The translations under genes were made by a program, and so were the position numbers. A stretch of DNA of 64,000 nucleotides from positions 43,763 through 107,762 of the IMG/VR virus record IMGVR_UViG_3300028287_000410, one strand, 5' to 3'. The notes under the pieces are model-generated. The model had not been told where the DNA came from and made no database searches. It saw nothing but the letters and a program-made list of their open reading frames with translations. This stretch comes from a virus. Below, piece after piece: positions 474 through 45,161 of this stretch (the first letter of the stretch is position 1; every line of letters begins with the position of its first letter).

Positions 474-1529
474 TTATTCTACTAAGTTTAGACCGTCTAT
501 AACATCCCCATCAATGACCATATCAACCGGATGTTTTTCACCATAGAATTCATTCTGTTCCCAGCACTGGTCTTCTTCATTCCAATCAAACCAAGGGCTA
601 ACTGCTAATACGTAGTTAGTCCTTTTGTACCCTGGCATTGGCTTTGCTACATATGGGCGATGTGTCACATATGTATCCCAAACATACCAATTTCCGGGAG
701 TAAATGACTTTGTTCCATAATCTTCAATTTCAATACCATATGCATTCTCTGGATTATCAAGTGCTAAGTTTATACGAAGTTCGTAAAACCAGCTTTCATC
801 TCTGTGCCATAGGAATTTGTTTGCAGTCTCTTGTGTTGCTTTATCATCGATGCCTTTAATCTGAGCAATGCGACTACGCACAGGCGAAGACTTAATTCTA
901 TCCCTTAGTGTGCCTAAATATTCATGTCCAGAACATTCACTCCAATTTCTAAATCCCCATGTGTCTGGGTACGTATCTTTGTTGATACGTTCACCTACGT
1001 CTTTTCTATCTTCGTATGTATCTAAAAGTTCATTTAGTACAGTATCGTCAATTATACCATGTTGATGTAAATATCTAAACCCATGATGCATCCCAAACTC
1101 CTGGGTCTCACTCCACAAGTCTTTATCTAGACGTTTTTCCATAATCTTTTCAAATAATGAAAAGTTCTTCATAAACAGTTCATCTGGAATGTTATTTCTA
1201 GGATACCCTAATGTCTGTGCATTCTTTGGAATATTGTCATATCTATATGTAGGATTAGTCACCAAACTCAATCCACCATAGTTAGAACTTCTAGCAAATT
1301 TACCTTGATATATGTTTAGAAACCCATACCAACCATACTTTACGAATGCGTCTTCGATACTGTCTCTTAGTGTGTCCACATCTAATTTCGTATCTTCAAA
1401 TTCGAACAATACACCTTCTTTGCTTGGTTTCATTGTTTTAGCATATTTGTCAGTATCCAGAGTTTCTGCAATCCAGGCATGGACTGCTTTTCTATCTGGG
1501 CAATCTTTTATGTAAAATCTTTTCTTCAT
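474..1529 (-). CDS. putative 2OG-Fe(II)-type oxygenase (HxD...H protein)
   Basis: A 351-residue protein with the signature of non-heme iron oxygenases in its C-terminal third: H242 and D244 in WHRDESW, H290 in VTHRPY, and R303 in YKRTNY placed as the 2-oxoglutarate-binding arginine. Such enzymes hydroxylate or otherwise oxidise amino acids, peptides or small molecules. The substrate cannot be predicted. The N-terminal 200 residues match nothing I know. The gene is last in the leftward operon and its ATG overlaps the stop of the preceding radical SAM gene (ATGA). It is not closely alike the other two HxD proteins in the window (near 7 kb and 22 kb). The fold call rests on motif spacing only. 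Confidence 0.6.
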   Translation of the reverse strand: MKKRFYIKDCPDRKAVHAWIAETLDTDKYAKTMKPSKEGVLFEFEDTKLDVDTLRDSIEDAFVKYGWYGFLNIYQGKFARSSNYGGLSLVTNPTYRYDNIPKNAQTLGYPRNNIPDELFMKNFSLFEKIMEKRLDKDLWSETQEFGMHHGFRYLHQHGIIDDTVLNELLDTYEDRKDVGERINKDTYPDTWGFRNWSECSGHEYLGTLRDRIKSSPVRSRIAQIKGIDDKATQETANKFLWHRDESWFYELRINLALDNPENAYGIEIEDYGTKSFTPGNWYVWDTYVTHRPYVAKPMPGYKRTNYVLAVSPWFDWNEEDQCWEQNEFYGEKHPVDMVIDGDVIDGLNLVE

Positions 1530-2701
1530 TTTTTATAACTCACATCTCCGGGATAGATAGGAACCATTGCGCCGGGCGCACGTTTTGGAATTTTACTGTC
1601 AGCACTAGATACACAACTATCTGAAATACACACCTTAGGCGCATCGAATAGTTTAAACCCACTCTCAATATACCCTAAGGGCTCGTCAGAACAACTGTAA
1701 GAGCGTTTAATAGACCCATCAGGCTCACGTATAATAATACCCTTAAACCCGCTTGTACAATCCCAACCTTTAAACTTGTTAAAGTTAAACGCATTAAAGC
1801 GTTCTGCTTGGTCCATGTAGTACTTGTCACCTTTACTATCTTCGAACTCTACTTGCATGATAGGTGGGACATTCTTATCATCGCCATTAATCATATCCAT
1901 CTTCCACATGCTTCCTGTGCGTGGCTTTGGACGCATTGCTTTAATAGTATTCGCTTTTTCAATAGTATCAGTGTACGCACGTTGTGGCATACCATTCTGC
2001 ATCATCTTTAGTTGTTCGTCTGTGTATCCGTCTACAACACGTGATGCAGTAGGATCTGACTGTGGTTTTAGAGTAACATTGATTCCACGCTCATGAAAGT
2101 ACATTGCGTTATTCCAATCTCTATCAAACCAGTCTGGTACAAGTACCATATTGATTGTTACTTGCACATCATGTTCCATACAGAATAGAAGTTTGTCAGC
2201 AAATTCATCCATCTTTGCATATTCACTGTGATAAGATGCAGTAATACTTGCACGATGAAACTTTGCAACAATGTCACAATATTTCTGAAACCAATCCATC
2301 TTACGTGCCATATTTGTTGTCATATGAACAGAGGTATAATTAGTGTTATCGACATCATCAGCCAAATGCTGCAAAATATCCAAGTATCCTGGATGAAAAG
2401 TAGGCTCACCGCCAGACAAAGAAAAATGGAAACTATTAAAACTGTTATCACGTGCTTGCCTCTTAATTTCATCTATGGTCGCTAGACACAACTCTGTTGG
2501 TCTATGATCTTTTCTATCACTTCTGGCATAAGGCCAGCAGTACGAACACTTGTAGTTACAGAAACGTCCTAATAACCAAGACACTGAAAACAAATCCCTG
2601 TATAAAAGTGTTCGTTGACCTACCTTAACGATATCATCATACGGCGTTGCTGTAAAGTCGTATTGTGACCAGTAGTCTGCATCTTTTTCAATCTTATCCA
2701 T
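1526..2701 (-). CDS. radical SAM protein, GWxC C-terminal type
   Basis: A 391-residue radical SAM enzyme. The 4Fe-4S cysteines C48, C52 and C55 lie in CNYKCSYCW, followed by SGGEPTFH, the SAM-contacting GGEP motif. The C-terminal part holds further cysteines (KGWDCTSG, YSCSDEP, KVCISDSC) that could bind an auxiliary cluster. It resembles the protein encoded at 9967-10983, which shares a KGWxC element and a DGS/DGN turn followed by Cys, so the two look like paralogs. It lacks the N-terminal FCxxPW twitch region of the neighbouring gene. Spacing to the next gene is two bases and the ATG is preceded by AAGG. The enzyme class is firm. The reaction, on a peptide, sugar or other substrate, is unknown. 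Confidence 0.85.
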   Translation of the reverse strand: MDKIEKDADYWSQYDFTATPYDDIVKVGQRTLLYRDLFSVSWLLGRFCNYKCSYCWPYARSDRKDHRPTELCLATIDEIKRQARDNSFNSFHFSLSGGEPTFHPGYLDILQHLADDVDNTNYTSVHMTTNMARKMDWFQKYCDIVAKFHRASITASYHSEYAKMDEFADKLLFCMEHDVQVTINMVLVPDWFDRDWNNAMYFHERGINVTLKPQSDPTASRVVDGYTDEQLKMMQNGMPQRAYTDTIEKANTIKAMRPKPRTGSMWKMDMINGDDKNVPPIMQVEFEDSKGDKYYMDQAERFNAFNFNKFKGWDCTSGFKGIIIREPDGSIKRSYSCSDEPLGYIESGFKLFDAPKVCISDSCVSSADSKIPKRAPGAMVPIYPGDVSYKK

Positions 2702-2703
2702 TA

Positions 2704-4131
2704 TTATACCTTGTATTTTTTCATCGCGTTATATAGTTCTGGCAACTGACGTTCCATATCTTCGTCGCGGATGTCATCTAACTTGCTGTTATATTCCCAA
2801 AACTTTTTATTGTTTTCTTCTGTGAACCAATCTTCTCCGTACATGAAATTAATATTCGTGTCTAACAGATTATCCATTTTCTTGATAGCCCACTCTGCAT
2901 TTGCAGGTTTTATCATTCCTATTACGTTTGGATTTTTCTTAACTAGACTATGAAAATCAATAGTGTGTACTATTTCTTCTTTAAATTCAGTCCTAAATGC
3001 TTCCCAACTATCACGTACTTCATCCTTTACATCTTTCGGTAGGAAACGAGTACTTAATTCATGTGGTTTGTGAATAGGGTGTACATTTGCAAAAGGTTTT
3101 AAGTTATTCTTCAGTATAGGAGAGATAACTGCAAAATCTTGTTCAATCTTCCATTTTAAAAACTCTGGCAAATGAAATGCATTTAGGGAACCGATAGTAA
3201 ATGCAATCCAGGCTCTAAAATTCATAGTCTGTGTGCCTACTTCATCTAGTTTCTTTAGATTTTTTTCTATTAGTTTTGACTTCAATGGGTTGCGTACATA
3301 TTCTAGTGTGTCTCCGATACCGTCCATAGAGATACCAAACTGTACTTGCTTAAAGTTAGTCCATAAGTCTAACGCACGTGGTTGGATATTTGTTAGGTTA
3401 GTATTATACTCAAGTGTCATTTCTTTTGCTTTACCTTGCTCTACACAATACTTTAAGAAATCATAATGTCTTTCAATAATAAGTGGTTCGCCGCCTACTA
3501 GATATACGTGTTGCATACCAGCTACGTTCTCTTCTAAGTTCTCCCAGAAGTGATCTTTGTGTACCCAATCGTAATCATCAGCGACATACTTTCCCTTCTT
3601 ATTCTTATACATTTCAACGACACCATGTGTGTCTTTGAATTTACTTGATCCCCACATTTTAACATAGTCATCATACCAAGCACTAGAATCCATCGGTGAA
3701 CACATACGACATTTTAAGTTACAAAAGTTACCTAATCGAATATCGTAATACGTTTGCTTAATATGCTCTAAGTCTATTGTACCATCTTCTTCTGTATGAG
3801 CTACCGCCTGATCCCAAGTAATGTGTTGTGCAAAACGTTCACCATCATTGATACGTCGAGATTTCATACCTGCTTTTTCTTCACGTACACAACGAATACA
3901 TTCCTTATGCCACTTACCTTCAAGCATAGTAGAACGAATTTCTTTTGCTAATGGAGAGTTAATCGCATCAGTGATTTGGTCATGATGCAAATTATAGTTT
4001 GTTCCGTCTTCTTTCTTGTAAATACCACGTGTCGGTCCTTGATTAGCATGACAACACACACGCAAATCTCCATTTGCACGTGTCGAAATGTTTATCCATG
4101 GTAGAATACAGAATGTATCACTCTTTTGCAT
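2704..4131 (-). CDS. twitch-domain radical SAM protein
   Basis: A 475-residue protein of the group with an N-terminal cysteine-rich twitch-like region before the radical SAM barrel. C8 sits in FCILPW, then C26-C27 and C78xxC81, a set suited to an auxiliary Fe-S cluster. The radical SAM cysteines are C137, C141 and C144 in CNLKCRMC, and VGGEPLI follows. N-terminal twitch radical SAM proteins are known in marine phage genomes and in some glycan gene clusters, without an assigned product. Eight genes here share this layout. The start overlaps the preceding gene by 14 bases, which suggests translational coupling. Domain call strong; substrate unknown. Confidence 0.87.
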   Translation of the reverse strand: MQKSDTFCILPWINISTRANGDLRVCCHANQGPTRGIYKKEDGTNYNLHHDQITDAINSPLAKEIRSTMLEGKWHKECIRCVREEKAGMKSRRINDGERFAQHITWDQAVAHTEEDGTIDLEHIKQTYYDIRLGNFCNLKCRMCSPMDSSAWYDDYVKMWGSSKFKDTHGVVEMYKNKKGKYVADDYDWVHKDHFWENLEENVAGMQHVYLVGGEPLIIERHYDFLKYCVEQGKAKEMTLEYNTNLTNIQPRALDLWTNFKQVQFGISMDGIGDTLEYVRNPLKSKLIEKNLKKLDEVGTQTMNFRAWIAFTIGSLNAFHLPEFLKWKIEQDFAVISPILKNNLKPFANVHPIHKPHELSTRFLPKDVKDEVRDSWEAFRTEFKEEIVHTIDFHSLVKKNPNVIGMIKPANAEWAIKKMDNLLDTNINFMYGEDWFTEENNKKFWEYNSKLDDIRDEDMERQLPELYNAMKKYKV

Positions 4132-5353
4132 ATTCGTTCATCTCCGTATCTTCAAAGTTCTCTTCGCCGTTGCCTCTGAAGTCTAATTCTTTACCACAAG
4201 TCTTACCGCAAATCCAAAGACGTTCATCTGAATTTGTTTCCCAGCTTGCTACTAAGTCATTTGCAAAATATGGGGTTTTGAGTATATCAAATAATGAATG
4301 TTTTGATAAATCATTGAAATCTTTGCCATATCGTTTCCACATATTCTTATTGTCTTCGATACGTCTTGGCGTTGCCATATCGTGTCCTATTTTACTATAG
4401 TAATGTCCCTGCCAACAGCAAGGCCATACTTTACCCTGATAATCGATAAAAATACTCTTATCTCTTTTAGTTTGACATGCTATTTCTGTAACCTTTACAT
4501 AATTATCAAACCCTTTGTGCTTTTTAATTACATCATCTACTTTATTAGTAGTATTAGATTTTGTTTTTGTAGGTTCTGCTAAAATAGTTGCAAGTGCTTT
4601 CTCTTTTTGTTCTGTTGTCTTACTTTCAATTTTCTTTTTGTTTTTTGCTACATGTTGTTTAGCAACAAATGTTAATTCTTTTTTAGTTTCAATAGCTTCG
4701 ACTTCTTCTCCCTCGTAATGTGTAGGGATAACATATCTATTTGATTTCTTATATCTAAACTTGACAAAGCCCATGTCTTCTGCTAGTTGTCTCGCTTCAT
4801 CTATCTGATGCTCATTGTGTGCAAAGCCTATGAAGTCCCAACGTGCAATGCCACCATTAGCAATGAATGCTTTTGCATTACGCATAATAATATTCCACTT
4901 AGAATTCACACGATACAAATGATTAGTGTCTTCTAGTCCATCGATAGCAAAGATAACCTTGTCTGGCTTTCGCATAATAGATGCAAGTTCAATCCACCAC
5001 GCTTCCGTCTGTGCAGAACCGTTTGTACTCAACGTAACTTGTGCTACTCCCATATCTTTGCACATCTTTACCACTTCTAGTAAATATGGATACATGATAG
5101 GATCACCGTAGTTCCCATTAATGAATACGTGATTAGGAAGAAACGGTTTCATGTCTTCCAATGCTTGTTGTATTACTCTAGGATCAGTATCAGTTAAGTC
5201 TAAATCATCACGCTTCTTTAGCTTTATGTTATCTCCATCCATGCCAGTTGTTCTTCCGCACATCGGGCACAGTAAGTTGCACCTAGAAGTAAGTTCTAAA
5301 TGCATCACACCTACATCAAATTTGATGTACTCTAAGTTCTCTGATTTCGCCAT
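4118..5353 (-). CDS. radical SAM protein with C-terminal SPASM-like cysteines
   Basis: A 411-residue radical SAM enzyme. The cluster motif C25, C29, C32 (SRCNLLCPMC) is close to the N-terminus. Instead of GGEP it has NGNYGDP, a glycine-rich variant shared with its paralog at 10983-12071. The C-terminal region has DYQGKVWPCCWQGHYY and a final CGKTCGKE, resembling SPASM auxiliary-cluster ligands, which are usual in radical SAM enzymes that act on peptides. Between them, at residues about 225-265, lies a lysine-rich, probably flexible insert. It overlaps both neighbours, as elsewhere in this operon. Enzyme class firm; a peptide substrate is only suggested by the SPASM-like tail. Confidence 0.85.
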   Translation of the reverse strand: MAKSENLEYIKFDVGVMHLELTSRCNLLCPMCGRTTGMDGDNIKLKKRDDLDLTDTDPRVIQQALEDMKPFLPNHVFINGNYGDPIMYPYLLEVVKMCKDMGVAQVTLSTNGSAQTEAWWIELASIMRKPDKVIFAIDGLEDTNHLYRVNSKWNIIMRNAKAFIANGGIARWDFIGFAHNEHQIDEARQLAEDMGFVKFRYKKSNRYVIPTHYEGEEVEAIETKKELTFVAKQHVAKNKKKIESKTTEQKEKALATILAEPTKTKSNTTNKVDDVIKKHKGFDNYVKVTEIACQTKRDKSIFIDYQGKVWPCCWQGHYYSKIGHDMATPRRIEDNKNMWKRYGKDFNDLSKHSLFDILKTPYFANDLVASWETNSDERLWICGKTCGKELDFRGNGEENFEDTEMNEYAKE

Positions 5354-6927
5354 CTTAAAAATATTTCTTTAGGTAAGTTTCTGTATGCATGATTCAGTTC
5401 TTTAATTTGCATTCCTCTAGTAGGAGTGCCGTCCCAGTCAGCACTATGTAATCGAATTCTATTGTTTAATTTACTAACATCATTAACAAAACGTTTGTAT
5501 ACGTCCCGTCTTTCTTCATATGATTTAATCCACATTGTGTAACGTGTAGTTATATAGTTACTACTCCACATAACATCCTCAGTTGTATCATCTTGTGTAG
5601 TGTCGATCATTGGAAGTAAAGAACTCCAGTCAGTGATTAAGTTTGCTTGTGTATATGTTACTTTATTATCCCTTACTCTTTCAAAGAACTCATACCATTC
5701 TTCCATGCTGTTAAAGATACGCAAGATACTTGCTTCGTATGCTTCTTTAGCACGTTCACGTTCTGATGCCCAGTCCTCAGACATATAATCGAAATCTTCA
5801 TATATAGAGATTAACCCTATATCTTTATTATAATAGTTTTCTTTCAAAAAGTCAAGATACATATTAAAGTTTCTTGGATCCCATTCTTCATGGACCCACT
5901 TGCGTACATCTAATGCATTTTGTGAAATGTCAAAGTAATTAATATTAACTGCGTCTATGTCTGTATCAGCATGCCAGTTTCTTAGAAAAGCAAATGTTTT
6001 AAATCCTGCTGCAACTGAATACACGTTACGCAACGGCTTTTTGTTAGGTACCATTTGAATATCGTTTACACTTTCTGTATTTAATATCCACATGGCATGA
6101 GGAGAACGTTCAACTGTAAATTGCTGATAACGTAGGAATGCAGATTTAGAATCGCCCAAGTCTGACTCCCAATGTTTAAAGTCAGCACATCCTTCTTTAA
6201 AGAATTGTTTAAACTCAGTTTGTTCTTCTTTAATTTCTGGATATAAGTATGTCTTTGTAGCTCTTACATCTTCATCAAAGTTTCCTATAGCAATGCCATT
6301 CTCTAGACTAGTGTTTATAAAGTTCCACCCAAATCCAGTACGAGTAATTTTTTCATAAGCTGGTCCGGGTGCAATATACTTAGGAGTATGCTCATCGTGA
6401 AAGTTCTCTATACTACGAAGTGCTTGTCTTACTTCTGTAGGACGAACACTAAAATCACCGAATGCAGGCTCTCCTAGTTCTTTCCATAATTTATAATTGA
6501 TTATAAAACATTGCTCATGAAATCTGAACCATCTATCTTTATGACGTTCATCAAGTATATGTCCCAATATTAGGAATTCATTATTCTGTGCCTTAGGTAA
6601 GTATTCGTGATTGCAGTATTCTCTGAATAAACTATATCCGTGTTCTAGTGGCTTCCAAGCATCATAAAATATATTACCGTATGCTTGAACTACAACCATA
6701 TCAATATCAGATTCTTTATCATCTGTTTTCATTGCTTGTAAAATTTTATCTACACTGTCTTCTTCGTAAATAGTATGCTTAAAAAAACTATAATTATTTC
6801 GCAAGAAATTATAAGTGATTGCTTTCATGTAATCACTAATTTCAGTATCACCTATTGTTTTAGATGTATCTAATACAGCACATCTAATCTGTGGATAAAA
6901 GTTATATGATCTTTGTTGCTTCTTCAT
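5332..6927 (-). CDS. large cargo protein of unknown function, Rossmann-like second half
   Basis: A 531-residue protein I cannot name. Two regions are visible. Residues about 1-200 carry a LILGHILDERHKDRWF...FIINYKLW stretch with several conserved-looking aromatics. Around residues 285-350 a strand-glycine-helix pattern (NVYSVAAGFKTFAFL) is followed by an acidic strand end (NYFDISQNAL), as in SAM-dependent methyltransferase or other Rossmann folds. The same pattern appears in the proteins at 13267-14676 and 14676-15608. No signal peptide or membrane helix is evident. It sits between a SPASM-type radical SAM gene and a beta-hydroxylase-like gene and overlaps both by a few bases, so it probably belongs to the same pathway. 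Confidence 0.6.
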   Translation of the reverse strand: MKKQQRSYNFYPQIRCAVLDTSKTIGDTEISDYMKAITYNFLRNNYSFFKHTIYEEDSVDKILQAMKTDDKESDIDMVVVQAYGNIFYDAWKPLEHGYSLFREYCNHEYLPKAQNNEFLILGHILDERHKDRWFRFHEQCFIINYKLWKELGEPAFGDFSVRPTEVRQALRSIENFHDEHTPKYIAPGPAYEKITRTGFGWNFINTSLENGIAIGNFDEDVRATKTYLYPEIKEEQTEFKQFFKEGCADFKHWESDLGDSKSAFLRYQQFTVERSPHAMWILNTESVNDIQMVPNKKPLRNVYSVAAGFKTFAFLRNWHADTDIDAVNINYFDISQNALDVRKWVHEEWDPRNFNMYLDFLKENYYNKDIGLISIYEDFDYMSEDWASERERAKEAYEASILRIFNSMEEWYEFFERVRDNKVTYTQANLITDWSSLLPMIDTTQDDTTEDVMWSSNYITTRYTMWIKSYEERRDVYKRFVNDVSKLNNRIRLHSADWDGTPTRGMQIKELNHAYRNLPKEIFLRWRNQRT

Positions 6928-7724
6928 TTTGTTGTTTTAGCCCAACTCTTTAAAATTAAATCTTCAAAATCTGATCCACCATATTGTCCATGAACAATCA
7001 TATGCACACGAACTTCATCAGTATCATTCATTACTGCATGACGATGACCTACATTCATCTTAAACATATTACCTGGCTTCCACGGAACATACGCATTGTC
7101 ATCAATCATTTTAAAATGACAATTTTCTGGATTGTTCAACGATATATTTAGTGGTCCTAATTTGTTGTGTTCATAATCTGTATGTGGTGTTATATAACCT
7201 CCCGGCTCTAAGTACATGTAACGAACTCTATCGAATGCTCTGTAACCCGGAATAGATTTAATCATCTTAACAGTCTCTGGACATTTATCTGCAATTTCAG
7301 TCCAATGATATGCTGCTCTTGCTTCACGTTCATCTGCATACACAAAGCCTGCTGCGGCAACATCTTTACTATCCCAATGTTGAGATACATGCTTACCTAA
7401 CCCATGTAGTGTCAGGGAGCGCCATCCTCTGTGTCCATAGTCATCGGGGTTGTTCTCATCATAATCGTTCTTTCTATGTTGAATTGCTTCATCGTAAACT
7501 GCCATTGCTTCATTATAACATGCATTCCAATCAAACTCAGGGACATCTAATTTTAACCATGGGATACCTGACTCGTGTGTAACCCATTTTGCTTGTCTGA
7601 AACGTGCTGATGGTGGGAATCTAGGCTCATTCATCATAGCATCTACAAATGTACCTGGCATCGTATCAAAGCTATAACTATTTCTATCTTTAAAATGTTC
7701 TTCTATTGTTTTTGGGTATTCCAT
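6924..7724 (-). CDS. aspartyl/asparaginyl beta-hydroxylase-like oxygenase
   Basis: This protein resembles the aspartyl/asparaginyl beta-hydroxylase family of 2-oxoglutarate-dependent oxygenases. With the start at 7724 the motif residues are H181 and D183 (TPHTDYE), a histidine in GHRHAV (227 or 229) and R239 (EVRVHM). The PGGYITPHTDYEH block and the WKPGNMFKMNVGHRH block are typical of the family. The frame is open upstream to an ATG at 7748. I prefer 7724 because a GGGAG stretch lies before it and its ATG overlaps the stop of the preceding PP-loop gene (TAATG). Related proteins hydroxylate Asp/Asn side chains, proline or small substrates. The phage substrate is unknown, but radical SAM neighbours fit a modification pathway. 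Confidence 0.75.
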   Translation of the reverse strand: MEYPKTIEEHFKDRNSYSFDTMPGTFVDAMMNEPRFPPSARFRQAKWVTHESGIPWLKLDVPEFDWNACYNEAMAVYDEAIQHRKNDYDENNPDDYGHRGWRSLTLHGLGKHVSQHWDSKDVAAAGFVYADEREARAAYHWTEIADKCPETVKMIKSIPGYRAFDRVRYMYLEPGGYITPHTDYEHNKLGPLNISLNNPENCHFKMIDDNAYVPWKPGNMFKMNVGHRHAVMNDTDEVRVHMIVHGQYGGSDFEDLILKSWAKTTK

Positions 7725-8380
7725 TATACCAATCTCCCGAATGCCCATTTACGTTCTTCGCACCACCAACATTTACCACAATGTCCAGTGACTGGGTCTT
7801 CTATGTTTTCAAAATAATTACTAGTAGGATCATATTCACAACTTCTAGTAATCGGATAAAGTTCTTCAAGTAAATTTGCTTCTTTATACATTTCTGCAAT
7901 TTTTAGTTTATCGGAATTAAACCATGGCGTGTAAAATGTATTATTATGATGCATATATGGATTGTTGCCTGGTGTTCTGTTTGTTTCTGTAACTGGCAAT
8001 CCAAATGTATCTGTGACTTCTTTTGGAGGGTTTGATGTTATACCAGTATATATAATTCCTGTTGTGTTACTATCTAAGTATACCTGCAATTTAGGAAATA
8101 ATTCTTCACGTGTTTGTATTTCACAGTAACTAATATGATGTTCAATATTACTATTACTAGTTAACTGAATAATTTTCTCTACTACATTTACTGCCGCTTG
8201 AACATTATATCTTGATCTCTGATTATTACCAGTAGTAAAGATATGTATTGTATCTTCTTTTTCTCGCATTAAATGATAAAGCAAAATAGAACTATCTGCT
8301 CCGCCGCTACAACTCACTCCGATCGGACCAGAGTGAATATCTAAGTTTACACCAGCTGGAGAAATAGAGTAATTAATCAT
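7724..8380 (-). CDS. QueC-like PP-loop ATPase
   Basis: A 218-residue adenine-nucleotide alpha-hydrolase. The ATP-binding P-loop SGGADSS (residues 25-31) is complete. The C-terminus holds four cysteines, C181, C201, C204 and C207 (GHCGKCWWCEER), in the arrangement that binds zinc in 7-cyano-7-deazaguanine synthase QueC. In QueC the enzyme activates 7-carboxy-7-deazaguanine and converts it to preQ0. Phages use that route for deazaguanine DNA modification, but no queD, queE, folE or Dpd-like gene is visible nearby. The middle of the protein diverges from QueC. It could instead amidate or thiolate another substrate of this operon. PP-loop call firm, QueC function doubtful. Confidence 0.7.
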   Translation of the reverse strand: MINYSISPAGVNLDIHSGPIGVSCSGGADSSILLYHLMREKEDTIHIFTTGNNQRSRYNVQAAVNVVEKIIQLTSNSNIEHHISYCEIQTREELFPKLQVYLDSNTTGIIYTGITSNPPKEVTDTFGLPVTETNRTPGNNPYMHHNNTFYTPWFNSDKLKIAEMYKEANLLEELYPITRSCEYDPTSNYFENIEDPVTGHCGKCWWCEERKWAFGRLV

Positions 8381-9935: not shown

Positions 9936-9963
9936 ATTAACTCCAATACTTTGATTATGTACG

Positions 9964-9971
9964 TATTTATC
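9964..9971 (-). promoter_or_regulatory. late-promoter-like octamer GATAAATA
   Basis: On the minus strand GATAAATA, one base off the T4 late consensus TATAAATA, lies 29 bases before the ATG at 9935. The same spacing recurs at three other genes here. It overlaps the 3' end of the upstream radical SAM gene, so it could be an internal late promoter in the operon. Confidence 0.45.
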
Positions 9972-27434: not shown

Positions 27435-27464
27435 GAATGTATAAGTTAGAGAGAAGGACTAAAA

Positions 27465-29933: not shown

Positions 29934-29950
29934 ATTTATGCTAAAAAATA

Positions 29951-29992: not shown

Positions 29993-30011
29993 AAGAGAGG
30001 AAATGATTCTT

Positions 30012-31748: not shown

Positions 31749-31769
31749 TTTAGAAACACATCTATAAAA

Positions 31770-31922: not shown

Positions 31923-32461
31923 TCATTGTACACACTTCTGTCACTCTCTGTCATCCAATAAGTATATCCAGATTTATCAAGCATATACTTTGCACTAAGT
32001 ATATTCTTTATCTTTAAAATATCTGTATATTCCGGATCTGCGATATATTTAATATAATAATCGTAAAACTTTCTGTTATCTTTACTAACTTTCCATCTAG
32101 AACCGTCAGGATTAATACCATCATATCCCATTCCAACTGAGAAGTTCTGATACCCATCTTGTGTTTTTAATTCAATTCTATCAGGGCCTGTCCATTGGAT
32201 AAGGAACTTATCTCCCTTTTCTGCCTTGTGCGTTTCACCGAAGAATTCAAACCCATCATTTAATAAATCATATATAACACGATGTATTCTATCGTTGCTA
32301 CCTCCAGGCCAAGACAAGTTAATAGGATCAAGTCCCAACTCACGTGCTACGATTGCCCCATAGCAGTTCGTTAGGTTGGTATCAGTAAAATGACCAATAC
32401 CAGCGCCTTCTATTTCGCATCCCATGCCATGGGAACACGCAATGATGAATAACTTACTCAT
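31883..32461 (-). CDS. SGNH-hydrolase-like protein, C-terminally frameshifted
   Basis: The intact frame encodes 192 residues beginning MSKLFIIACSHGMGCEIEG (serine 10 in an ACS block I) with PINLSWPGGSNDRIHRVIYDLL as block II/III. It ends early with QHLTGNIL. The expected C-terminal acid-histidine region is encoded in the neighbouring frame at 31770-31922, so as it stands the protein lacks part of the catalytic set. I chose the ATG at 32461, which overlaps the preceding stop (ATGA), over a GTG at 32470. It is the last gene of the large leftward operon, preceded by another SGNH gene. Same broad family as the proteins near 21, 26, 29 and 38 kb. Confidence 0.65.
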   Translation of the reverse strand: MSKLFIIACSHGMGCEIEGAGIGHFTDTNLTNCYGAIVARELGLDPINLSWPGGSNDRIHRVIYDLLNDGFEFFGETHKAEKGDKFLIQWTGPDRIELKTQDGYQNFSVGMGYDGINPDGSRWKVSKDNRKFYDYYIKYIADPEYTDILKIKNILSAKYMLDKSGYTYWMTESDRSVYNEDFIVQHLTGNIL

Positions 32462-36532: not shown

Positions 36533-36536
36533 TTTT

Positions 36537-37547: not shown

Positions 37548-37554
37548 GCATTAC

Positions 37555-38319
37555 TTACTTTTCTATTGTATACCTATTTATATCAAACGGGCTTCTTTTA
37601 TTTTGTCCGATGTTTATAAAATATTTCATTGCTTGTCTCGCTAACAACTTTTTATTAGTATCTGACATATGATTTAGTTTTTCAAAATATTTAAGGTTTT
37701 CCCTGCGTACTATTTGCATTAAGTTAAACTCATCGCCATCAAAAAGGTCACTAAATGAATGTAATACTAATACATCATTTTTCATAGTATTCAAATAAGT
37801 TTGTACAAGACTAAATTGATTTTTTACATCATCAGCATACATGCAGCGTGTTAAGTATGTTTGCCAAAATTCTTTATCTTTTTTAAAATATTTACATTGT
37901 TCTTTAGGAATAGAGGACAGTTCAAAATCAGGATCTATAAATTTCCACGCCGTAGAATGCCAACCTTGAGATTCATCATCTAATAAATTTGTAACACGTG
38001 AAGCATTGGTCACGCCGAATATTATAGTATCATTTTCGTCATACTCAGTTTCCATATAATGAAACAGCATTTGAACACTATAATTTAAACTAGTACCTGA
38101 GTTTGCATAATTTAAAAGACTCATATTCAAATTATCTGCTAATAAACCTGTCCAAGACAGACCTTGATTAGGTATATTATGAATCTTACCCGTGCTATGT
38201 TGAAAAAAACTATCCCCGAATACTACTAGCCGCCGGCCTTTTTTATTATTGTCAGTACGATGGATCTTGCGGTTTTCATAATTTATACTTAGTAATAAAT
38301 TTTTAAGTCTTCTAGTCAT
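37555..38319 (-). CDS. SGNH-hydrolase-like protein
   Basis: About 254 residues. A basic lead of some 30 residues precedes RRLVVFGDSFFQHS (GDS block I, serine near residue 37). LLNYANSGTSLNYSVQML fits block II and IIFGVTNASRVTN block III. A clear DxxH is not found, since the C-terminus (KRSPFDINRYTIEK) lacks it, so the catalytic triad may be incomplete. The frame opens at an ATG at 38337, but the ATG at 38319 has GGTGGAAA before it and fits the overlap with the preceding radical SAM gene. Related by motif to the five other SGNH-type genes of this window. Confidence 0.62.
   Translation of the reverse strand: MTRRLKNLLLSINYENRKIHRTDNNKKGRRLVVFGDSFFQHSTGKIHNIPNQGLSWTGLLADNLNMSLLNYANSGTSLNYSVQMLFHYMETEYDENDTIIFGVTNASRVTNLLDDESQGWHSTAWKFIDPDFELSSIPKEQCKYFKKDKEFWQTYLTRCMYADDVKNQFSLVQTYLNTMKNDVLVLHSFSDLFDGDEFNLMQIVRRENLKYFEKLNHMSDTNKKLLARQAMKYFINIGQNKRSPFDINRYTIEK
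37575..37582 (-). promoter_or_regulatory. late promoter octamer TATAAATA
   Basis: A perfect T4-type late consensus TATAAATA on the minus strand, 28 bases before the ATG at 37547, inside the end of the SGNH-like gene. Spacing equals that of three other octamers here. Confidence 0.55.
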
Positions 38320-39703
38320 AGCGTTTCCACCAATCATATAATTCTGTATCTAGTTTGTAAATATCTTCTAATCGATACTGCTCTTGTCTAATCTTATCAA
38401 GTCTATCCTGATAGCCTTTACCATTCTTAAACTCTTGTTCGTGTGTATCTGGGAACTGTTCAGCAAACGTTGGGCGTTTCTTCATTTCGATAAGGGTATT
38501 TATTAGTGTCTCTTGCTTGTTAGTTGCAATGGGTTTCATATAATCAAGTAGCTCATCAATCTTTCTGTCCAGAATATGACGCGGCCACGCGAACGGTGAC
38601 ATAACGATGTCAGCATGGAACGCAAACATTATCTTTGTTTCCATACGTACATCTAGCTCTAATGATAAGTCAAACAAATCTTTTAGTGAGAACATGCCCG
38701 GACCAGTGATAGTCAAATCAAACAACATCCTGTGTTTACCGCCTGGTGCCGCCAGTCCTTGCTTAAAGTTGTCTAGCCACTCCTCCCATACGATACCTTT
38801 ACGAATGAACTCTACGATATCTCCTGTGCCATCAATACTCGCACACATCAACCAGTCTTTAAACTGTGGCAGATAGTCAAACAAGTTCTTGCCTTTAAAG
38901 TCTACACGTGATAGATTAGAATTATAACGCAAATGACAGTTCTTTGCAGAACCGTTGTTTACCATTTCTTCTAATGCCCACCAATGTATATCATACATAA
39001 GAGGTTCTCCGCCTACCCAATAGATTTCTTCTACTACGCCATCAGAGATAGCTTTCTTGAATTCAGGTTCAGCAACATCTTTCTGAAACTTTTGCATCTT
39101 TTGTTTAACTGTTGGTTGCATAAAAGGCTGATGTTCAATCGACCACATATCATGCTTTTTCTTTTCAGCTTCCCATGCACTTGATAATTGCTCACCGCAC
39201 ATACGACATTTAAAGTTGCATAGATTACTGTAGCGATAATCAAATGAGATTGTAGGCATAGTTGTATACCCATCATCATCTGTTTTGTCAAATGCTTCCT
39301 GAATTTTATCTTTAAACAGAACACCAGTGAACCACTTGCGATACGAACTTAGAGATAGAGTGTCATCATTACATACATCACATTGTGGGATACGTTCACC
39401 CGCCATTAGCTTCTTGCGAATGTCACGCATGTATGGGGAGTTCCAATGCTCTTCTAATGTCATCGGATTGAAATCATCAGCATCAGTTTTAGAATCAGTT
39501 ACTTTGCCATATTTTGAATCGTTTGATGCATCAATATATTGTTTCTGAAAAGAATGCTCTTCACGTGATGCACAACACATTCTACGTTCACCCTGTGGAG
39601 AGATATAAGTATGTGACCATGGTGCCATGCAGAAAGTTTTGTTTTCACTTTCTTCTGCACAACTCGCATCGTCTTTCCAGATGGGTATAATTCTTTTAGT
39701 CAT
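38312..39703 (-). CDS. twitch-domain radical SAM protein
   Basis: A 463-residue twitch radical SAM protein with a longer, charged N-terminus (residues 1-22) before C25 in FCMAPW. Further cysteines are C43-C44, C108xxC111 and the radical SAM set C162, C166, C169 (CNFKCRMC), with VGGEPLMY after it. An additional C15 is not conserved in its relatives. The SIDGTGDIVEFIR block and the C-terminal IRQEQYRLEDIY are family features. It overlaps the preceding twitch gene by eight bases. It belongs with the neighbours at 39696-40937 and 40924-42063, a direct run of three twitch genes. Confidence 0.87.
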   Translation of the reverse strand: MTKRIIPIWKDDASCAEESENKTFCMAPWSHTYISPQGERRMCCASREEHSFQKQYIDASNDSKYGKVTDSKTDADDFNPMTLEEHWNSPYMRDIRKKLMAGERIPQCDVCNDDTLSLSSYRKWFTGVLFKDKIQEAFDKTDDDGYTTMPTISFDYRYSNLCNFKCRMCGEQLSSAWEAEKKKHDMWSIEHQPFMQPTVKQKMQKFQKDVAEPEFKKAISDGVVEEIYWVGGEPLMYDIHWWALEEMVNNGSAKNCHLRYNSNLSRVDFKGKNLFDYLPQFKDWLMCASIDGTGDIVEFIRKGIVWEEWLDNFKQGLAAPGGKHRMLFDLTITGPGMFSLKDLFDLSLELDVRMETKIMFAFHADIVMSPFAWPRHILDRKIDELLDYMKPIATNKQETLINTLIEMKKRPTFAEQFPDTHEQEFKNGKGYQDRLDKIRQEQYRLEDIYKLDTELYDWWKRYD

Positions 39704-40937
39704 GTACGTAACTCGCTAACTCTGGTAAGTAATCTTCAACTCTTTGATTTCTAATGGTATCTAACTTTCTTGTAATCTTAGAATACTGTGGCCACCATTC
39801 TTCATGCATACTTGGGTTATCAAGCATTTTTCTATAACTTATAAACTGCGGTAGTGTATATGATACATCATTATTCTGAGTTTGTAAATAGTTAATATGG
39901 TCATCTAGTTTCTTTTTTGCGTTATTCATCACTTCAGGAGGAGCAATTTCTACACGATAATATTCTGGATGAAACAATGGGTTAAGTCCAAACTTGTTAA
40001 TGTCTATAAGTTCATTCTCATACAAATACTTATGCAAGTCTACGACATGGTCAATGTTCATGATACCAACAGTACAGCTATCAAATATTTCTACGTTCGG
40101 ACATTCACGTCTTATAAGACGAATGTTCTCTTCAATCTTGTCCCACGGTTGCCCTGCTCTTACGTATTCCGCACGTGGACCATATGCATCAATAGATGCC
40201 ATAATCTTAACACGTTCTAGTTTATTCCAAATATCAATTGCACTGCGTTTCTTGTATGTAAGTTGACTTAAATTTGTCTGATAAAAGATATGAGCATTAA
40301 GATTTCCCTGTGCAATTACTTCATCGATGAAAGCCCAATGCTCTGGCATAATAAGAGGTTCACCACCTGCAAAGTAAATACGTTCTAAATTTTTAATTTG
40401 TGGTCTAGTTTCATCCATCAATGAATCAAAATTACTTCTAACTTTTTTTACTTTTTGATGGTGTATCGCAAACGTATCACCTAATAGTTTAACACTATCA
40501 TCAAACCACATTGTACTAAAATCAGGACCGCAACTTCTACACTTCATATTACAATTGTTACTGAAACGAATATCCCAATATGTAATTCGTAGCTCGTTTA
40601 AAGTGCCATCCTCTGAGGTGTTTTCTACTAAATCATAATGATGACCGTTTTCTTTATTCATACTTTGTCGTAAAGATTTGAATCCATATTCTTCTTGCTC
40701 ATAGCATCGTGTACACGCTTCACTACGTTCTCCGTTAAGCATGTTCTTACGTAGTTGTTTTGCTTTATCTGTATTAAGAATATCTCCGAGTGGAGTATCA
40801 TTTAAATTACCAAATTGATGTTCTTTTCCAACATTACTTAAACAACATGGATACACTTCACCACCTGCCCAAGCATGTACATGTACCCAAGGTGCCATAC
40901 AGAATACTTTACTATCTTTTATATCATATTTGTTCAT
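39696..40937 (-). CDS. twitch-domain radical SAM protein
   Basis: A 413-residue twitch radical SAM protein. From the ATG at 40937: C13 (FCMAPW), C31-C32, C75xxC78, then C129, C133, C136 (CNMKCRSC), with AGGEPLIM. The open frame formally begins at a TTG one codon earlier, and the ATG is preferred. The N-terminal portion HVHAWAGGEVYPCC shows the short beta-hairpin before the double cysteine that all members share. The tail reads IRNQRVEDYLPELA. No unusual feature apart from being one of three adjacent copies. Confidence 0.87.
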   Translation of the reverse strand: MNKYDIKDSKVFCMAPWVHVHAWAGGEVYPCCLSNVGKEHQFGNLNDTPLGDILNTDKAKQLRKNMLNGERSEACTRCYEQEEYGFKSLRQSMNKENGHHYDLVENTSEDGTLNELRITYWDIRFSNNCNMKCRSCGPDFSTMWFDDSVKLLGDTFAIHHQKVKKVRSNFDSLMDETRPQIKNLERIYFAGGEPLIMPEHWAFIDEVIAQGNLNAHIFYQTNLSQLTYKKRSAIDIWNKLERVKIMASIDAYGPRAEYVRAGQPWDKIEENIRLIRRECPNVEIFDSCTVGIMNIDHVVDLHKYLYENELIDINKFGLNPLFHPEYYRVEIAPPEVMNNAKKKLDDHINYLQTQNNDVSYTLPQFISYRKMLDNPSMHEEWWPQYSKITRKLDTIRNQRVEDYLPELASYVHD

Positions 40938-42063
40938 CAATATACTCTACTAATTCTGGGAATGCTACTTCAAATAGTCCCGGTCTTGTTCTTCTTGAAT
41001 AATCTAATTTACTACGAAGGTTAGATATATCTCCAGTGCCGTTCATTATTCTAATCAACCAATTATCATTACCAATAATTGGGTTAATCTGACAATCATC
41101 TAATTTGTGATTTTCAAATTTAAGTCTAATACGCTGTTTAAATTCTTCTGGTAAGTCAATAGAATTAAATGGGTGTGTGACAATATTATTGAATACTTTA
41201 ACATTATGTTCACTGCACCAAACATGAAAGTCCGGCAAGTCAAATATATTTAGTGCGGATACACTATGCGATATTTCTACTTGACATAAGCCTTCATCTC
41301 TAATAGAAATAAATTTCTTAAACACTTCATATGTTTCTTCCCATTTACCTGGATATCTCTGAAACTCAAACTTCTCATGTGTGTTATCTAGGCTAAGCAT
41401 AATACGAACAAGTTTAAACTCTTTAAAATATTTAACAAGTTCTTCTGGCCATATAGTACAGTTAGTAAACCATGTGATTTCGATATTCTTTGCTAAGTCA
41501 CGTTTAACAAGAAACTCAATCAGAATCTTTTGCTTCTTAATCATGAACGGTTCCCCACCTGCTAATTCAACTCTTTTCAAGTTATTAGCATGTAGATTAA
41601 GTTCTTCCCAGAATTCATCTGTGTCTTGCCATTTAGGTGCAGGCGTATACTTAATACCAAATTGTTTATCTATACTTCCCCATTTACTACTAGAATGCGA
41701 ACCACAAATTGCACATGCTAAGTTACATGTGTTCCCCATTTTTAAATCGATTGATTGTAGCATGTCTTGTTCAAAACCAAGATTATCTTTCCAAAGTTTT
41801 ATCTCTCTGGTACGTTTACTTTCACCGCCAGACTTTTCTACGTCATAGCACTGAGTACAATCTTTTTCAAAATGTGAATCGAAGTTATCAATCCATTCTT
41901 TTCTATCTGATGAATTGATAACTTCTGTAATAGTATTTGTATATGCGTTTGCTTTTTTGCCATCAATAGAAAAACGTTTTGAGCTAATACAACACGGAGT
42001 CATTTCTCCTTGTGTCGTAAGTTCAATATTGTTAGTTACTAATGGACAAAACTTCCTAGTCAT
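40924..42063 (-). CDS. twitch-domain radical SAM protein
   Basis: A 379-residue protein and the shortest twitch member here. Cysteines: C6 (KFCPLV, in place of FCxxPW), C24-C25, C69xxC72, and the radical SAM set C113, C117, C120 (CNLACAIC), with AGGEPFMI. The active-site block reads SLDNTHEKFEFQRYP, so the usual SxDGxGD is altered to SLDNTHE, which may reflect a different substrate. Post-cluster sequence SHSSSKW links it to the genes at 34176 and 35342. Overlaps both neighbours by eight to fourteen bases. Confidence 0.86.
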   Translation of the reverse strand: MTRKFCPLVTNNIELTTQGEMTPCCISSKRFSIDGKKANAYTNTITEVINSSDRKEWIDNFDSHFEKDCTQCYDVEKSGGESKRTREIKLWKDNLGFEQDMLQSIDLKMGNTCNLACAICGSHSSSKWGSIDKQFGIKYTPAPKWQDTDEFWEELNLHANNLKRVELAGGEPFMIKKQKILIEFLVKRDLAKNIEITWFTNCTIWPEELVKYFKEFKLVRIMLSLDNTHEKFEFQRYPGKWEETYEVFKKFISIRDEGLCQVEISHSVSALNIFDLPDFHVWCSEHNVKVFNNIVTHPFNSIDLPEEFKQRIRLKFENHKLDDCQINPIIGNDNWLIRIMNGTGDISNLRSKLDYSRRTRPGLFEVAFPELVEYIDEQI

Positions 42064-43603
42064 CTACCACAACACCACCTAGTGCGTCATTCTCTGTATC
42101 CCAACCACCAACAGCTTTCTCATGTTCATCATCGCCGCCATCATACGCTTCAGTCGTTGCAGGGTCCCCGGCACGATCCGCAACACTAAGAACAAACGTT
42201 TTAGTCTTAATTTGTTCTTCTGTAGGGACTTCCGCTTCAAGTGTTTGATACCAATCTGCTATTGGACCAGGGAATGTTTCGACAAAGTTATGACCTCTAC
42301 GCACATCAAACTGTTGAAAGAATGCTTTAAAGTCATGATATAGTTTATCTTGCTCGGCTGTATTCTTATGTGGAGTCTTAACAATATCAAGATAATCAAT
42401 TAGACGTTGAATACTTGCGCGTTCGCCATCAGTCAATGCTTGTTGATTTAAAAAGAACCATGCTTCTAGTTTGTCTTTATAGAATGTTTTGATATTCACA
42501 GGAAGAATTGCCGCACTTTGAAATGATGGGAAACGTAAAATGTTTAGCGTCATTGTTGGCGCACGTTTTCCATATTCTTTACGTAGTTCAAGCATCTCAT
42601 CCATGAACTCTGTAATAGTAGTTAAGCATAATGAATTGATTGTCATCATCATATGTAACTTCTGTACATTAGATTCTTTAAGAACACGATGGATACTATT
42701 CATCCATAGATCATAATCTAGGCCGTCACGTATATACTCAGCTTGTGTTTTTGCTGCTTCCATCGATGTGTAAATTTCAAAGTTGGGAACATGCCATGAT
42801 TTCTCGATCAATTTGTCCAACACTTTGGGTGTCTGCGGAGAGAGATTACTATTGATAGCAAATCTCATGTTACGACCGCGATGTGGATTTTGTTCAAACC
42901 AATCAAACAACTTCCATGTACCAGTATGCATAATAGGCTCGCCGCCTGTAATGCGAATTTCTTCTAAGTTGTCTGCAAGATCACTTTCCCACCATTCGTG
43001 AAACGCTTTAATGAACGGGTTGTCTTCTGCTTTTCTTGCTGCAGGTTCTGCCCATGGTGCAGTGTCAACAAAGTGACCGCGACCATCAGACTGAATGTTT
43101 TGATATGCACCATAATCGTTGATGTCTTTAACCCATGCAGTTGAAAATGCTGGGTTACAATAAGTACATTTTAGATTACATGCTCTATCGAATGAGATTT
43201 CAAGTGTGCGTAGAAGCGCATTTTGATCCCATGGCATTTCCATACTTGCATCAATATCTTCATCTTTGAAGATTTCAGTTTTGAATACACGGTCAGAGAT
43301 ATGGTCTTTACCCATGTCTTCAACTTTCCAACAGTATTCACATTCTGCTGGGCGCTTACCTTCTTGCATTTGCTTACGCATAAGTTTCTTATGCTTTGTA
43401 TTGTGAATTGCAGTTGGGTTATCTTTTAATTCTTCAAGTGGAATCCAGTGCCCGGGCGGGTGGTGACAACTTGCTGTCTGTCCGTGACCTAACCAAATAG
43501 TAGCGTTATACCATTTAGCGGCACAGTAGCTTTCACTCTTGCTGTCGATCATACGCTCTTTGTATTGATGAAGGGTTTCGCCTTCCCAGTGTTTACGCCC
43601 CAT
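42056..43603 (-). CDS. radical SAM protein, variant twitch (CHHPP) type
   Basis: A 515-residue member of a distinct twitch subfamily shared with the next gene. C27 sits in YCAAKW in place of FCxxPW. The double cysteine is replaced by C46-HHPPGH, and C88xxC91 is CEYCWKVED. The radical SAM cysteines are C142, C146, C149 (CNLKCTYC), and TGGEPIMH follows. Loss of one cysteine with gain of two histidines suggests a changed auxiliary cluster. The C-terminus has RRGHNFVETFP, matching RRGLNFLETFP in its partner, and an added acidic tail of some 60 residues. Strong paralogy of two adjacent genes suggests a heterodimer or consecutive steps. Confidence 0.86.
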   Translation of the reverse strand: MGRKHWEGETLHQYKERMIDSKSESYCAAKWYNATIWLGHGQTASCHHPPGHWIPLEELKDNPTAIHNTKHKKLMRKQMQEGKRPAECEYCWKVEDMGKDHISDRVFKTEIFKDEDIDASMEMPWDQNALLRTLEISFDRACNLKCTYCNPAFSTAWVKDINDYGAYQNIQSDGRGHFVDTAPWAEPAARKAEDNPFIKAFHEWWESDLADNLEEIRITGGEPIMHTGTWKLFDWFEQNPHRGRNMRFAINSNLSPQTPKVLDKLIEKSWHVPNFEIYTSMEAAKTQAEYIRDGLDYDLWMNSIHRVLKESNVQKLHMMMTINSLCLTTITEFMDEMLELRKEYGKRAPTMTLNILRFPSFQSAAILPVNIKTFYKDKLEAWFFLNQQALTDGERASIQRLIDYLDIVKTPHKNTAEQDKLYHDFKAFFQQFDVRRGHNFVETFPGPIADWYQTLEAEVPTEEQIKTKTFVLSVADRAGDPATTEAYDGGDDEHEKAVGGWDTENDALGGVVVDD

Positions 43604-45161
43604 ATTTTACCTCGTATTCTTCTTTAGCTTCATTCCAGAAGTCTGTCATTTCAGGGAATGTTTCTAAGAAATTTAGTCCCCTACGCTTATCGTACTGTGT
43701 AAAGTATTCGTAGAAACGAATTAACTTATCACTTAATTCTGCGTCACTCATATTTAGTCCTTCTTTTGCCCAAGCTAAATCACGCTCAAGTTTTAGGACT
43801 TCATAGTTCTTAAACCCAGTGTACTTACGACCATACAAGTCGTTCTCTAATACGTTAGCTTTCATATAATCAATGTTCTGTTGAATAGTATCTAACATGA
43901 TAGGATCTGCTAACTGAATGGTCATCCAGTCTGGATAGCGTAAGTAAGGAATATCAAACCAAATACGTTGACGTTTTTTACGAACAAATTCTGGATGCTT
44001 AAATCCATTTCGGTCGGGAGGCTGAATAACTTTGTCTTCTTGTTTCTCATAGCCAAACTCTTCACGTAGTTTTAGAATCATATCTAAGAACCCACGTAAA
44101 TTCGGTATACTTAGGAGAGTAAAAGTGTTAATAAATGAAATCTCTGTACCATCTGTTTCAGATAATACTCGACGGCAATTTTCATACATTGTATCAAAAT
44201 CAAGACCATCACGCAGATATTCAGCCTGTTTCCCAACACTGTCTACACTTACATATAAACTAAAATGTTTACATGCTGGTGCAACATACCAATGATTGCC
44301 GCTATCAGGATTGAAACGTTCTGGATCTTCCCAAACACGGACTTCTTCTAATTTCTGTATTTTCGCAATGAACTTATCCATTAACGCTGGTTGAGGAGGC
44401 GCCATGTTTGACGTAATACTCAAATCTAAGAATGCGTTTGGATTTTCATTGACGTAATCTAATACTTTGAATGTATTCTTATCCATGAGAGGTTCACCAC
44501 CTGTCATACGAAATACTTTCAAGTCTTTATATGTTTCTGGAAACCACTTCCAGAATGCTTCGATATATGGATTATCTTTACGTGCAACTTCAAGTGGCAT
44601 CATGCCAGTCTTACGTAAGTAATCAATATCATTATGTCCAGTACCATTTGAGAAGCGGAAGCCACCATGCTTCTTAATATCATCTTCCCATGCTGTACTA
44701 AGATGCGGAGAACAATAAGAACACTTTAAGTTACACGCTTGATTGAAGTTTACTTCAACATATCTCGGTGTAATCTTATGATCCCATGGATTATTTACTA
44801 CTTCATCCCATGCGTCTTTAACCCACCACTCACTTGAGCGATAATGTCTGTCACTCAATCTTCCTTCTGTGGGAGCATTGGGCGCATCTTCTACATTCCA
44901 ACAGTACTGACAACCCTCAGGGCGCTTACCCTGCAACATTTGCTTACGCTCTTGCATCTTGAATGTTGTATTGTGTAATGCACCTACATCTTTTTTCAGT
45001 TCATCTAACGGAATCGCATGTGTGGGAGGATGATAACAACTATGTGTGCGACCTTGTGGTAAATGCAAACTTACTTGCAACCACTTAGCCATACACATTG
45101 AAGGTGAAAGAGAATTTAATTTTTGACGTGTTGCTTGTGCATCGTCATCGTAATTTGACAT
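43593..45161 (-). CDS. radical SAM protein, variant twitch (CYHPP) type
   Basis: A 522-residue paralog of the preceding entry. C23 (MCMAKW), C42 in SCYHPPTH, C84xxC87 (CQYCWNVED), then C143, C147, C150 (CNLKCSYC) followed by SPHLSTAW, and TGGEPLMD. It carries a longer middle insert (about residues 385-410, KQEDKVIQPPDRNGFKHPEF) than its partner and lacks the acidic tail. The IPLDEL motif after the HPP segment and LSDR before the barrel are shared by the two and absent from the other twitch proteins. It follows a glycosyltransferase-like gene with no gap, which ties this subfamily to the sugar genes. Confidence 0.86.
   Translation of the reverse strand: MSNYDDDAQATRQKLNSLSPSMCMAKWLQVSLHLPQGRTHSCYHPPTHAIPLDELKKDVGALHNTTFKMQERKQMLQGKRPEGCQYCWNVEDAPNAPTEGRLSDRHYRSSEWWVKDAWDEVVNNPWDHKITPRYVEVNFNQACNLKCSYCSPHLSTAWEDDIKKHGGFRFSNGTGHNDIDYLRKTGMMPLEVARKDNPYIEAFWKWFPETYKDLKVFRMTGGEPLMDKNTFKVLDYVNENPNAFLDLSITSNMAPPQPALMDKFIAKIQKLEEVRVWEDPERFNPDSGNHWYVAPACKHFSLYVSVDSVGKQAEYLRDGLDFDTMYENCRRVLSETDGTEISFINTFTLLSIPNLRGFLDMILKLREEFGYEKQEDKVIQPPDRNGFKHPEFVRKKRQRIWFDIPYLRYPDWMTIQLADPIMLDTIQQNIDYMKANVLENDLYGRKYTGFKNYEVLKLERDLAWAKEGLNMSDAELSDKLIRFYEYFTQYDKRRGLNFLETFPEMTDFWNEAKEEYEVKYGA

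Follow-up and report, generated by a model that had tools for sequence, protein, structure and literature searches.

T4-like phages rich in radical S-adenosylmethionine (SAM) genes, phage host-recognition islands and glycosylation of phage virions are all known. In 2017, 12 radical SAM (rSAM) genes were described in a T4-like marine genome, TARA_ERS488813_N000010 (PMC5332604), and a report of 2020 placed rSAM cassettes within the pelagimyophage host-recognition island (PMC7029224). In mycobacteriophages, glycans are carried by capsid and tail-tube proteins (Freeman et al. 2023, cited in PMC12619734). Here we analysed a 64,000-nucleotide stretch of viral DNA (the window), bases 43763-107762 of the 107,762-base linear virus record IMGVR_UViG_3300028287_000410, a metagenome contig; the window carries fifteen rSAM genes. 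Open reading frames (ORFs) are named by their left coordinate in the window, such as 8373. Many of the rSAM genes of this large aquatic phage follow directly on tail and sugar-transferase-like genes, an arrangement common to dozens of other uncultured phages; they therefore probably serve to make an unusual decoration, most likely on the phage's own tail.

A collinear tail-protein module

Positions 31883-48814 of the window were part of a collinear module, which runs from the tail protein 48873 through the small protein 48434, the glycosyltransferase-like 47568 and 46714, the small protein 46142 and the glycosyltransferase-like 45162 into the rSAM genes. Most genes overlap or abut. In the list, N-twitch denotes the N-terminal-twitch rSAM family of NCBIfam (N_Twi_rSAM, NF033640; curated cut-off 170 bits), and values after a family name are expectation values (E).

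49878-50795, minus strand: paralogue of 48873, by homology
48873-49847, minus strand: tail/baseplate protein, module anchor and suspected acceptor; homologue of EST35_0123 of phage PA5oct
48841-48869, minus strand: sigma-70-type promoter TTGACA-N17-TATAAT, before the glycosyltransferase/rSAM unit, between it and 48873
48434-48814, minus strand: small conserved module protein, found in most module loci
47568-48434, minus strand: GT8/glycogenin-like protein; weak match to the same glycogenin profile as 46714
46714-47571, minus strand: GT8/glycogenin-like protein; glycogenin profile match, E 0.005
46142-46762, minus strand: small module protein; a small ORF occupies this place in module loci
45162-46139, minus strand: glycosyltransferase-like protein, GT-A-like fold; model confidence (predicted local distance difference test) 92, weak Foldseek matches to GT-A enzymes and nucleotidyltransferases
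43593-45161, minus strand: N-twitch rSAM, CHHPP variant, usually the first module rSAM (directly behind the glycosyltransferase-like gene in 22/23 loci); NF033640 1.3e-90
42056-43603, minus strand: N-twitch rSAM, CHHPP variant, second rSAM of the module, behind 43593 in most module loci; NF033640 1.1e-92
40924-42063, minus strand: N-twitch rSAM; NF033640 4.2e-70
39696-40940, minus strand: N-twitch rSAM, module gene by conserved order; NF033640 1.4e-114
38312-39703, minus strand: N-twitch rSAM, module gene by conserved order; NF033640 1.2e-97
35342-36532, minus strand: N-twitch rSAM; NF033640 1.4e-104
34176-35342, minus strand: N-twitch rSAM, module gene by conserved order; NF033640 1.9e-95

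Contigs were fetched with 48873 and with its homologues from loci L138, L140 and L142, which had themselves been fetched by rSAM, and among these N-twitch rSAM genes lay behind the glycosyltransferase-like gene in 23/23 usable contigs, namely those with at least 1.5 kb of sequence behind that gene. Their order was typically 43593, 42056, 39696, 38312 and 34176, a near-fixed block, and this conserved order points to a multi-step pathway, one of two options that a first-pass annotation of the window had offered. When loci were found via 45162 instead, proteins like 47568 and 46714 were present in 77 of 80, the tail protein in 55 of the 64 with sufficient upstream sequence, and rSAM genes in 39 of the 59 with sufficient downstream sequence. 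The loci lacking rSAM genes held the core alone, or the core followed by methyltransferase-like, 2-oxoglutarate (2OG)-oxygenase-like and acetyltransferase-like genes (by eye). Based on the counts obtained via 45162, the tail protein, its small partner and the glycosyltransferases are the conserved core, to which the rSAM genes are linked as one tailoring add-on.

The homologue of 48873 in the cultured phage PA5oct, EST35_0123, adjoins a gp10-like baseplate gene, and its record notes electrospray tandem mass spectrometry (ESI-MS/MS). Homologues of 50873 and 51596 also lie upstream of EST35_0123. A fold search with 48873 gave no significant match in the PDB, only uncharacterised viral proteins. 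Tyr241 of 48873, a candidate acceptor residue, hardly varies among tail proteins linked to the module and falls in an alignment gap in the PA5oct homologue.

The promoter at 48841-48869 was the sole 12/12 sigma-70 consensus in the window. It is exact and in the same place in close relatives, and several distant ones have TATAAT with 10-11 of the 12 consensus positions; some relatives carry a terminator-like stem ahead of it (by eye). Comparable promoters precede the left-arm genes of the record and the lipoprotein gene 30003, and none precedes the tail genes. With a promoter of its own, the glycosyltransferase/rSAM unit is therefore probably transcribed separately, perhaps early. The T4 late promoter TATAAATA was also tried and rejected, with only 3 matches, below chance.

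A triad shared with Bdellovibrionota

The second group of interest, at positions 1526-12071, holds three rSAM genes that travel together.

8373-10091, minus strand: N-twitch rSAM, triad member 1, with Bdellovibrionota orthologues; NF033640 1.1e-128
1526-2701, minus strand: rSAM of the GWxC family, triad member 2, four conserved C-terminal cysteines; Pfam Radical_SAM 1.8e-12
10983-12071, minus strand: rSAM with GNFGDP, SPASM-like, triad member 3, with Bdellovibrionota orthologues; Pfam 8.8e-6

The true start of 8373 is probably internal, because the ORF overlaps the next gene. Genes of the 8373 type had both a GWxC partner (1526/9967 type) and a G-N-[YF]-GDP/SPASM partner (10983/4118 type) no more than 10 genes away in 61/72 viral and 15/20 bacterial loci. 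The bacterial triad loci were mostly on Bdellovibrionota contigs of up to several hundred kb, with housekeeping genes beside the cassette, and in Bdellovibrionota genomes with an 8373-type gene a 1526-type gene lay within about 4 kb. At the listed Bdellovibrionota loci, identity to the phage proteins was 60-69% for 8373, 56-63% for 1526 and 47-49% for 10983; across phages and Bdellovibrionota together, orthologues of 1526 were 51-82% identical. Since some of the loci assigned to other bacteria (e.g. L106, L125, L138, L140, L142 and L158) resemble phage contigs that had ended up in genome bins, we put weight on the Bdellovibrionota chromosomes only, which are metagenome-assembled genomes in which misbinning is possible too. 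The view that all rSAM modules require the tail protein was rejected, as the Bdellovibrionota triad is mostly without it.

N-twitch sets were large and often clustered in many Bdellovibrionota: 55/192 genomes had matches over the cut-off, up to 33 in one, and the record behind L123 and L129 (C1, 745-775 kb) provides an example of a clustered set. On one Bdellovibrionales contig (L109), close to its end, triad members and the tail-protein/glycosyltransferase/rSAM block immediately adjoin pheS-pheT, which may reflect chromosomal capture or an assembly join. In Bdellovibrio, phage-fibre-like adhesins serve prey recognition (PMC10769870); action of the triad on them would be speculative. A single-copy pair of adjacent enzymes, with about 56-72% identity between phage and Bdellovibrionota, offers a small, tractable system for studying the reaction.

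The radical SAM set, its history and its neighbours

The motif CxxxCxxC was counted over window ORFs of at least 80 amino acids and occurred in exactly 15, all at the places given by the first-pass annotation. All 15 matched Pfam Radical_SAM at E<=1.2e-4, and 11/15 reached Pfam's own cut-off. Of the four below it (8373, 10983, 42056 and 43593), three were strong NF033640 matches and the fourth, 10983, is a homologue of 4118. The N-terminal twitch model was passed by 10/15 proteins and missed by 1526, 4118, 9967, 10983 and 22476. The four N-terminal twitch cysteines were present in 10/10 window N-twitch members and 377/419 homologues, and all seven cysteines of the family were kept in 10/10 window members. 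The five groups described earlier were recovered, namely ten N-twitch (eight plus the CHHPP pair 42056/43593), two GWxC (1526 and 9967), two G-N-[YF]-GDP proteins with C-terminal SPASM-like cysteines (4118 and 10983), and the acyl-carrier-protein (ACP)-linked 22476 on the plus strand, which is followed by a 78-amino-acid acyl-carrier-like ORF. GGEP was present in most, as had been said, with GGEA in 8373 and GAEP in 22476. The remaining rSAM genes of the window are as follows.

2704-4131, minus strand: N-twitch rSAM; NF033640 4.6e-107
4118-5353, minus strand: rSAM with GNYGDP, C-terminal SPASM-like, homologue of 10983; Pfam 4.8e-9
9967-10983, minus strand: second GWxC-type rSAM, aligned with 1526; Pfam 2.5e-9
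12055-13266, minus strand: N-twitch rSAM; NF033640 2.9e-84
22476-23396, plus strand: rSAM, then the acyl-carrier-like ORF 23399-23635 (from the sequence); Pfam 1.5e-15

Iron-sulphur (Fe-S) clusters and reductive SAM cleavage are predicted for these proteins. Their best solved relative by sequence was the sactisynthase SkfB, and the best window score against viperin (NF038283) was 42.8 bits, versus a curated cut-off of 180 bits. Peptides are frequent substrates of twitch/SPASM rSAM enzymes. To our knowledge, the large N-twitch family is without any assigned reaction.

The rSAM genes with close relatives had ratios of nonsynonymous to synonymous substitution (dN/dS) of 0.02-0.11, which together with the retained twitch cysteines bears out the earlier view that they are not decaying. 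Recent tandem duplication or expansion was rejected, since 11/13 N-twitch paralogues had their nearest relative in another genome. These comparisons describe an old and divergent set that has been maintained. A scan of viral contigs gave at least about 600 related stretches, and in the 49 records examined, each chosen for having an N-twitch rSAM gene, the number of N-twitch genes was 3-22 (49/49). The statement that such genes seldom number more than a few in one phage is therefore not supported, and with the reports of 2017 and 2020 rSAM expansion as such is known. The first-pass annotation was thus right that the genes are real, maintained and suggestive of several steps; its statement on rarity was not supported, and it did not notice the two modules or how they connect with tail and glycosyltransferase genes.

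The whole record has 18 rSAM genes, 13 of them N-twitch, and three N-twitch genes lie upstream of the window. Judged by its DNA polymerase, the phage is T4-type and related to jumbo phages, with Phosso and Atu_ph07 as the nearest cultured relatives (45-50% identity). Cultured phages gave no match for 1526, 43593, 45162 or 46714; distant N-twitch genes were found among them only in Vibrio phages K566 and K567, plus an 8-kb single-cell virus record. In the cultured K566, a possible laboratory model, one region contains five or more N-twitch-like rSAM genes, some of which are annotated as hypothetical. The following genes accompany the rSAM set.

6924-7748, minus strand: Asp/Asn beta-hydroxylase-type 2OG oxygenase; Pfam 4.8e-17
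7724-8380, minus strand: QueC-like PP-loop protein; Pfam QueC 4.9e-7
13267-14676, minus strand: class I methyltransferase-like protein (by eye), of a family common to 14676
15601-19260, minus strand: 1219-amino-acid protein in which glycosyltransferase-like domains repeat; its C-terminal part is a homologue of 45162
19299-20831, minus strand: carbamoyltransferase; Pfam 7.6e-55
60472-64000, minus strand, running off the right end of the window: baseplate wedge subunit; phrog_10646 6.7e-128

The Asp/Asn beta-hydroxylase was the commonest Pfam family among rSAM neighbours (12/130 viral and 8/129 bacterial proteins), and QueC-like proteins occurred in both sets. The methyltransferase-like family of 13267 was present in 66/80 viral and 9/74 bacterial rSAM loci. 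The protein at 15601-19260 had no Pfam or PHROG match, and single-domain homologues of it stand beside the triad; a PHROGs search with nine accessory proteins gave no match. One ACP-like neighbour was seen in related loci, in Paenibacillus. A B12-binding rSAM family (L119, 7417-8934, with homologues in 20 loci) recurs near N-twitch genes in viral and bacterial loci. Six ORFs (20952, 25643, 28968, 31883, 32458 and 37555) are SGNH/GDSL-like by eye, an unusual number for one phage, and two match DUF6071. The putative lipoprotein encoded at 30003-31748 would be secreted; it combines FG-GAP repeats with a peptidoglycan-binding domain and may serve in exclusion or be a surface protein. Upstream of the window, at record positions 33973-35670, lies a tryptophan-halogenase-like protein (phrog_2928).

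Proposed tail decoration, competing readings and described systems

We favour the reading that this is a decoration island in which the rSAM genes do the tailoring and whose product sits on 48873 or on neighbours of this tail protein; we give it nearly an even chance. In its favour are the linkage seen in loci found from the tail protein and from 45162, the ESI-MS/MS note and gp10-like neighbour of the PA5oct homologue, the linkage of the triad, purifying selection, and an island almost free of transmembrane segments and so of any flippase or polymerase. A glycan or glycoconjugate would be assembled by the glycosyltransferases in the cytoplasm of the host. Each rSAM enzyme would cleave SAM and abstract hydrogen at its own site, leading to dehydrogenation, epimerisation or cross-linking, and the 2OG hydroxylases, methyltransferases, carbamoyltransferase and QueC-like ligase would modify the glycan further. 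Borne by 48873 or its neighbours, the product would aid receptor binding or shield the tail. A more specific form is tentative, and we regard it as possible rather than likely: a tail-protein glycan or glycopeptide, built by dedicated glycosyltransferases, would be diversified by at least five twitch rSAM enzymes through chemistry not described before, with the triad exchanged with the predatory Bdellovibrionota.

Several observations weigh against tail decoration. The glycosyltransferase calls are weak: the best structural matches of 45162 were GT-A enzymes and sugar nucleotidyltransferases at low TM-scores (Foldseek, at most 0.44), the profile match had E 0.005, and there was no Pfam match. 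The tail protein of PA5oct stands without glycosyltransferase or rSAM neighbours. In Bdellovibrionota the tail protein was found in 1/291 genomes versus about 17 with the triad enzyme 1526, so the triad at least needs no tail protein. Transcription that is probably separate, and perhaps early, weakens the case for simple co-expression with the tail, and would still permit tail modification. The sequence shows gene content, order, linkage and selection; we infer the glycosyltransferase activity, the substrate, the radical reactions, the acceptor and the benefit.

The chief rival, which we consider unlikely, is remodelling of the host envelope, in which a surface glycan (e.g. O-chain units) is made or altered during infection and blocks co-infecting phages. 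The pelagimyophage clusters of glycosyltransferases and rSAM cassettes have been read so (PMC7029224), the sigma-70-type promoter suggests early expression, UDP-glucose/GDP-mannose dehydrogenases occur in some viral loci, and the Bdellovibrionota triad does without the tail protein. However, linkage to a tail protein would be unneeded for such a job, and the membrane flippase and polymerase of an O-antigen or capsule cluster were not found. A hydropathy scan of the window gave no multi-helix membrane protein, and the lipoprotein signal and one doubtful stretch were the only transmembrane segments in the island, which argues for the absence of both enzymes.

Direct peptide chemistry, in which the rSAM enzymes and Asp/Asn hydroxylases modify a tail or host protein (cross-links, epimers) and no glycan is made, appears improbable. 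It would suit the peptide substrates common for twitch/SPASM enzymes, the relatedness to SkfB and the frequency of the hydroxylase among neighbours, but within the module it is the glycosyltransferase-like genes that are more constant. Moreover, ribosomally synthesised and post-translationally modified peptides have a short precursor peptide gene by the maturase, and no such ORF was seen in the gaps between the abutting or overlapping rSAM genes. More improbable still is a diffusible small molecule, modified cofactor or nucleotide used against the host or competitors; the ACP-linked 22476, the QueC-like protein, the carbamoyltransferase and halogenase-like genes in the record would fit it, but neither an exporter nor a synthetase from any known natural-product class was seen and the coupling to the tail gene is fixed. 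An artefact (chimaeric contig or decaying paralogues) can be dismissed as highly improbable: the record is indeed a linear contig from a metagenome, but both rSAM clusters recur, 40-50 kb apart, on two longer, independent contigs (116 kb and 343 kb), G+C is even (34-39%) and dN/dS is low, so that a join of several genomes, named earlier as a way in which the finding could fail, is unlikely and a chimaeric contig was rejected.

The module, which occurs in many aquatic phages, links N-twitch rSAM enzymes to one tail protein and glycosyltransferases, and thereby names a substrate class and provides a testable gene order. If tail decoration is the right reading, it would be a first radical-tailored virion decoration and would bear on host recognition by uncultured aquatic phages. 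In a literature search of incomplete coverage, neither the tail-protein/glycosyltransferase/rSAM module nor the triad nor the occurrence of the triad in Bdellovibrionota was described, which gives an absence of match only.

Compared with known systems, ten of the fifteen proteins share the N-terminal four-cysteine twitch and CxxxCxxC of NF033640; that family name states no reaction, whereas here many divergent members occur in one genome in conserved order. Like TARA_ERS488813_N000010, this is a T4-like phage with many rSAM genes. The marine genome was reported in the context of Fe-S metabolism (PMC5332604), whereas an A-type Fe-S carrier is absent from the window's record and present in 9/43 relatives. 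With the mycobacteriophages it would share virion glycans, which were demonstrated there, with no rSAM tailoring in the part of that work quoted, and which here are predicted. The pelagimyophage host-recognition cluster (PMC7029224) likewise groups glycosyltransferases and rSAM cassettes in a variable island close to baseplate and tail genes. It sits between VrlC/baseplate genes and gp14; the island described here adjoins the baseplate wedge gene, and VrlC and gp14 were not identified in the incomplete record. Unlike that cluster, the present locus has a tail-protein/glycosyltransferase/rSAM module of conserved order, in a phage whose polymerase is nearest to those of the jumbo phages Phosso and Atu_ph07.

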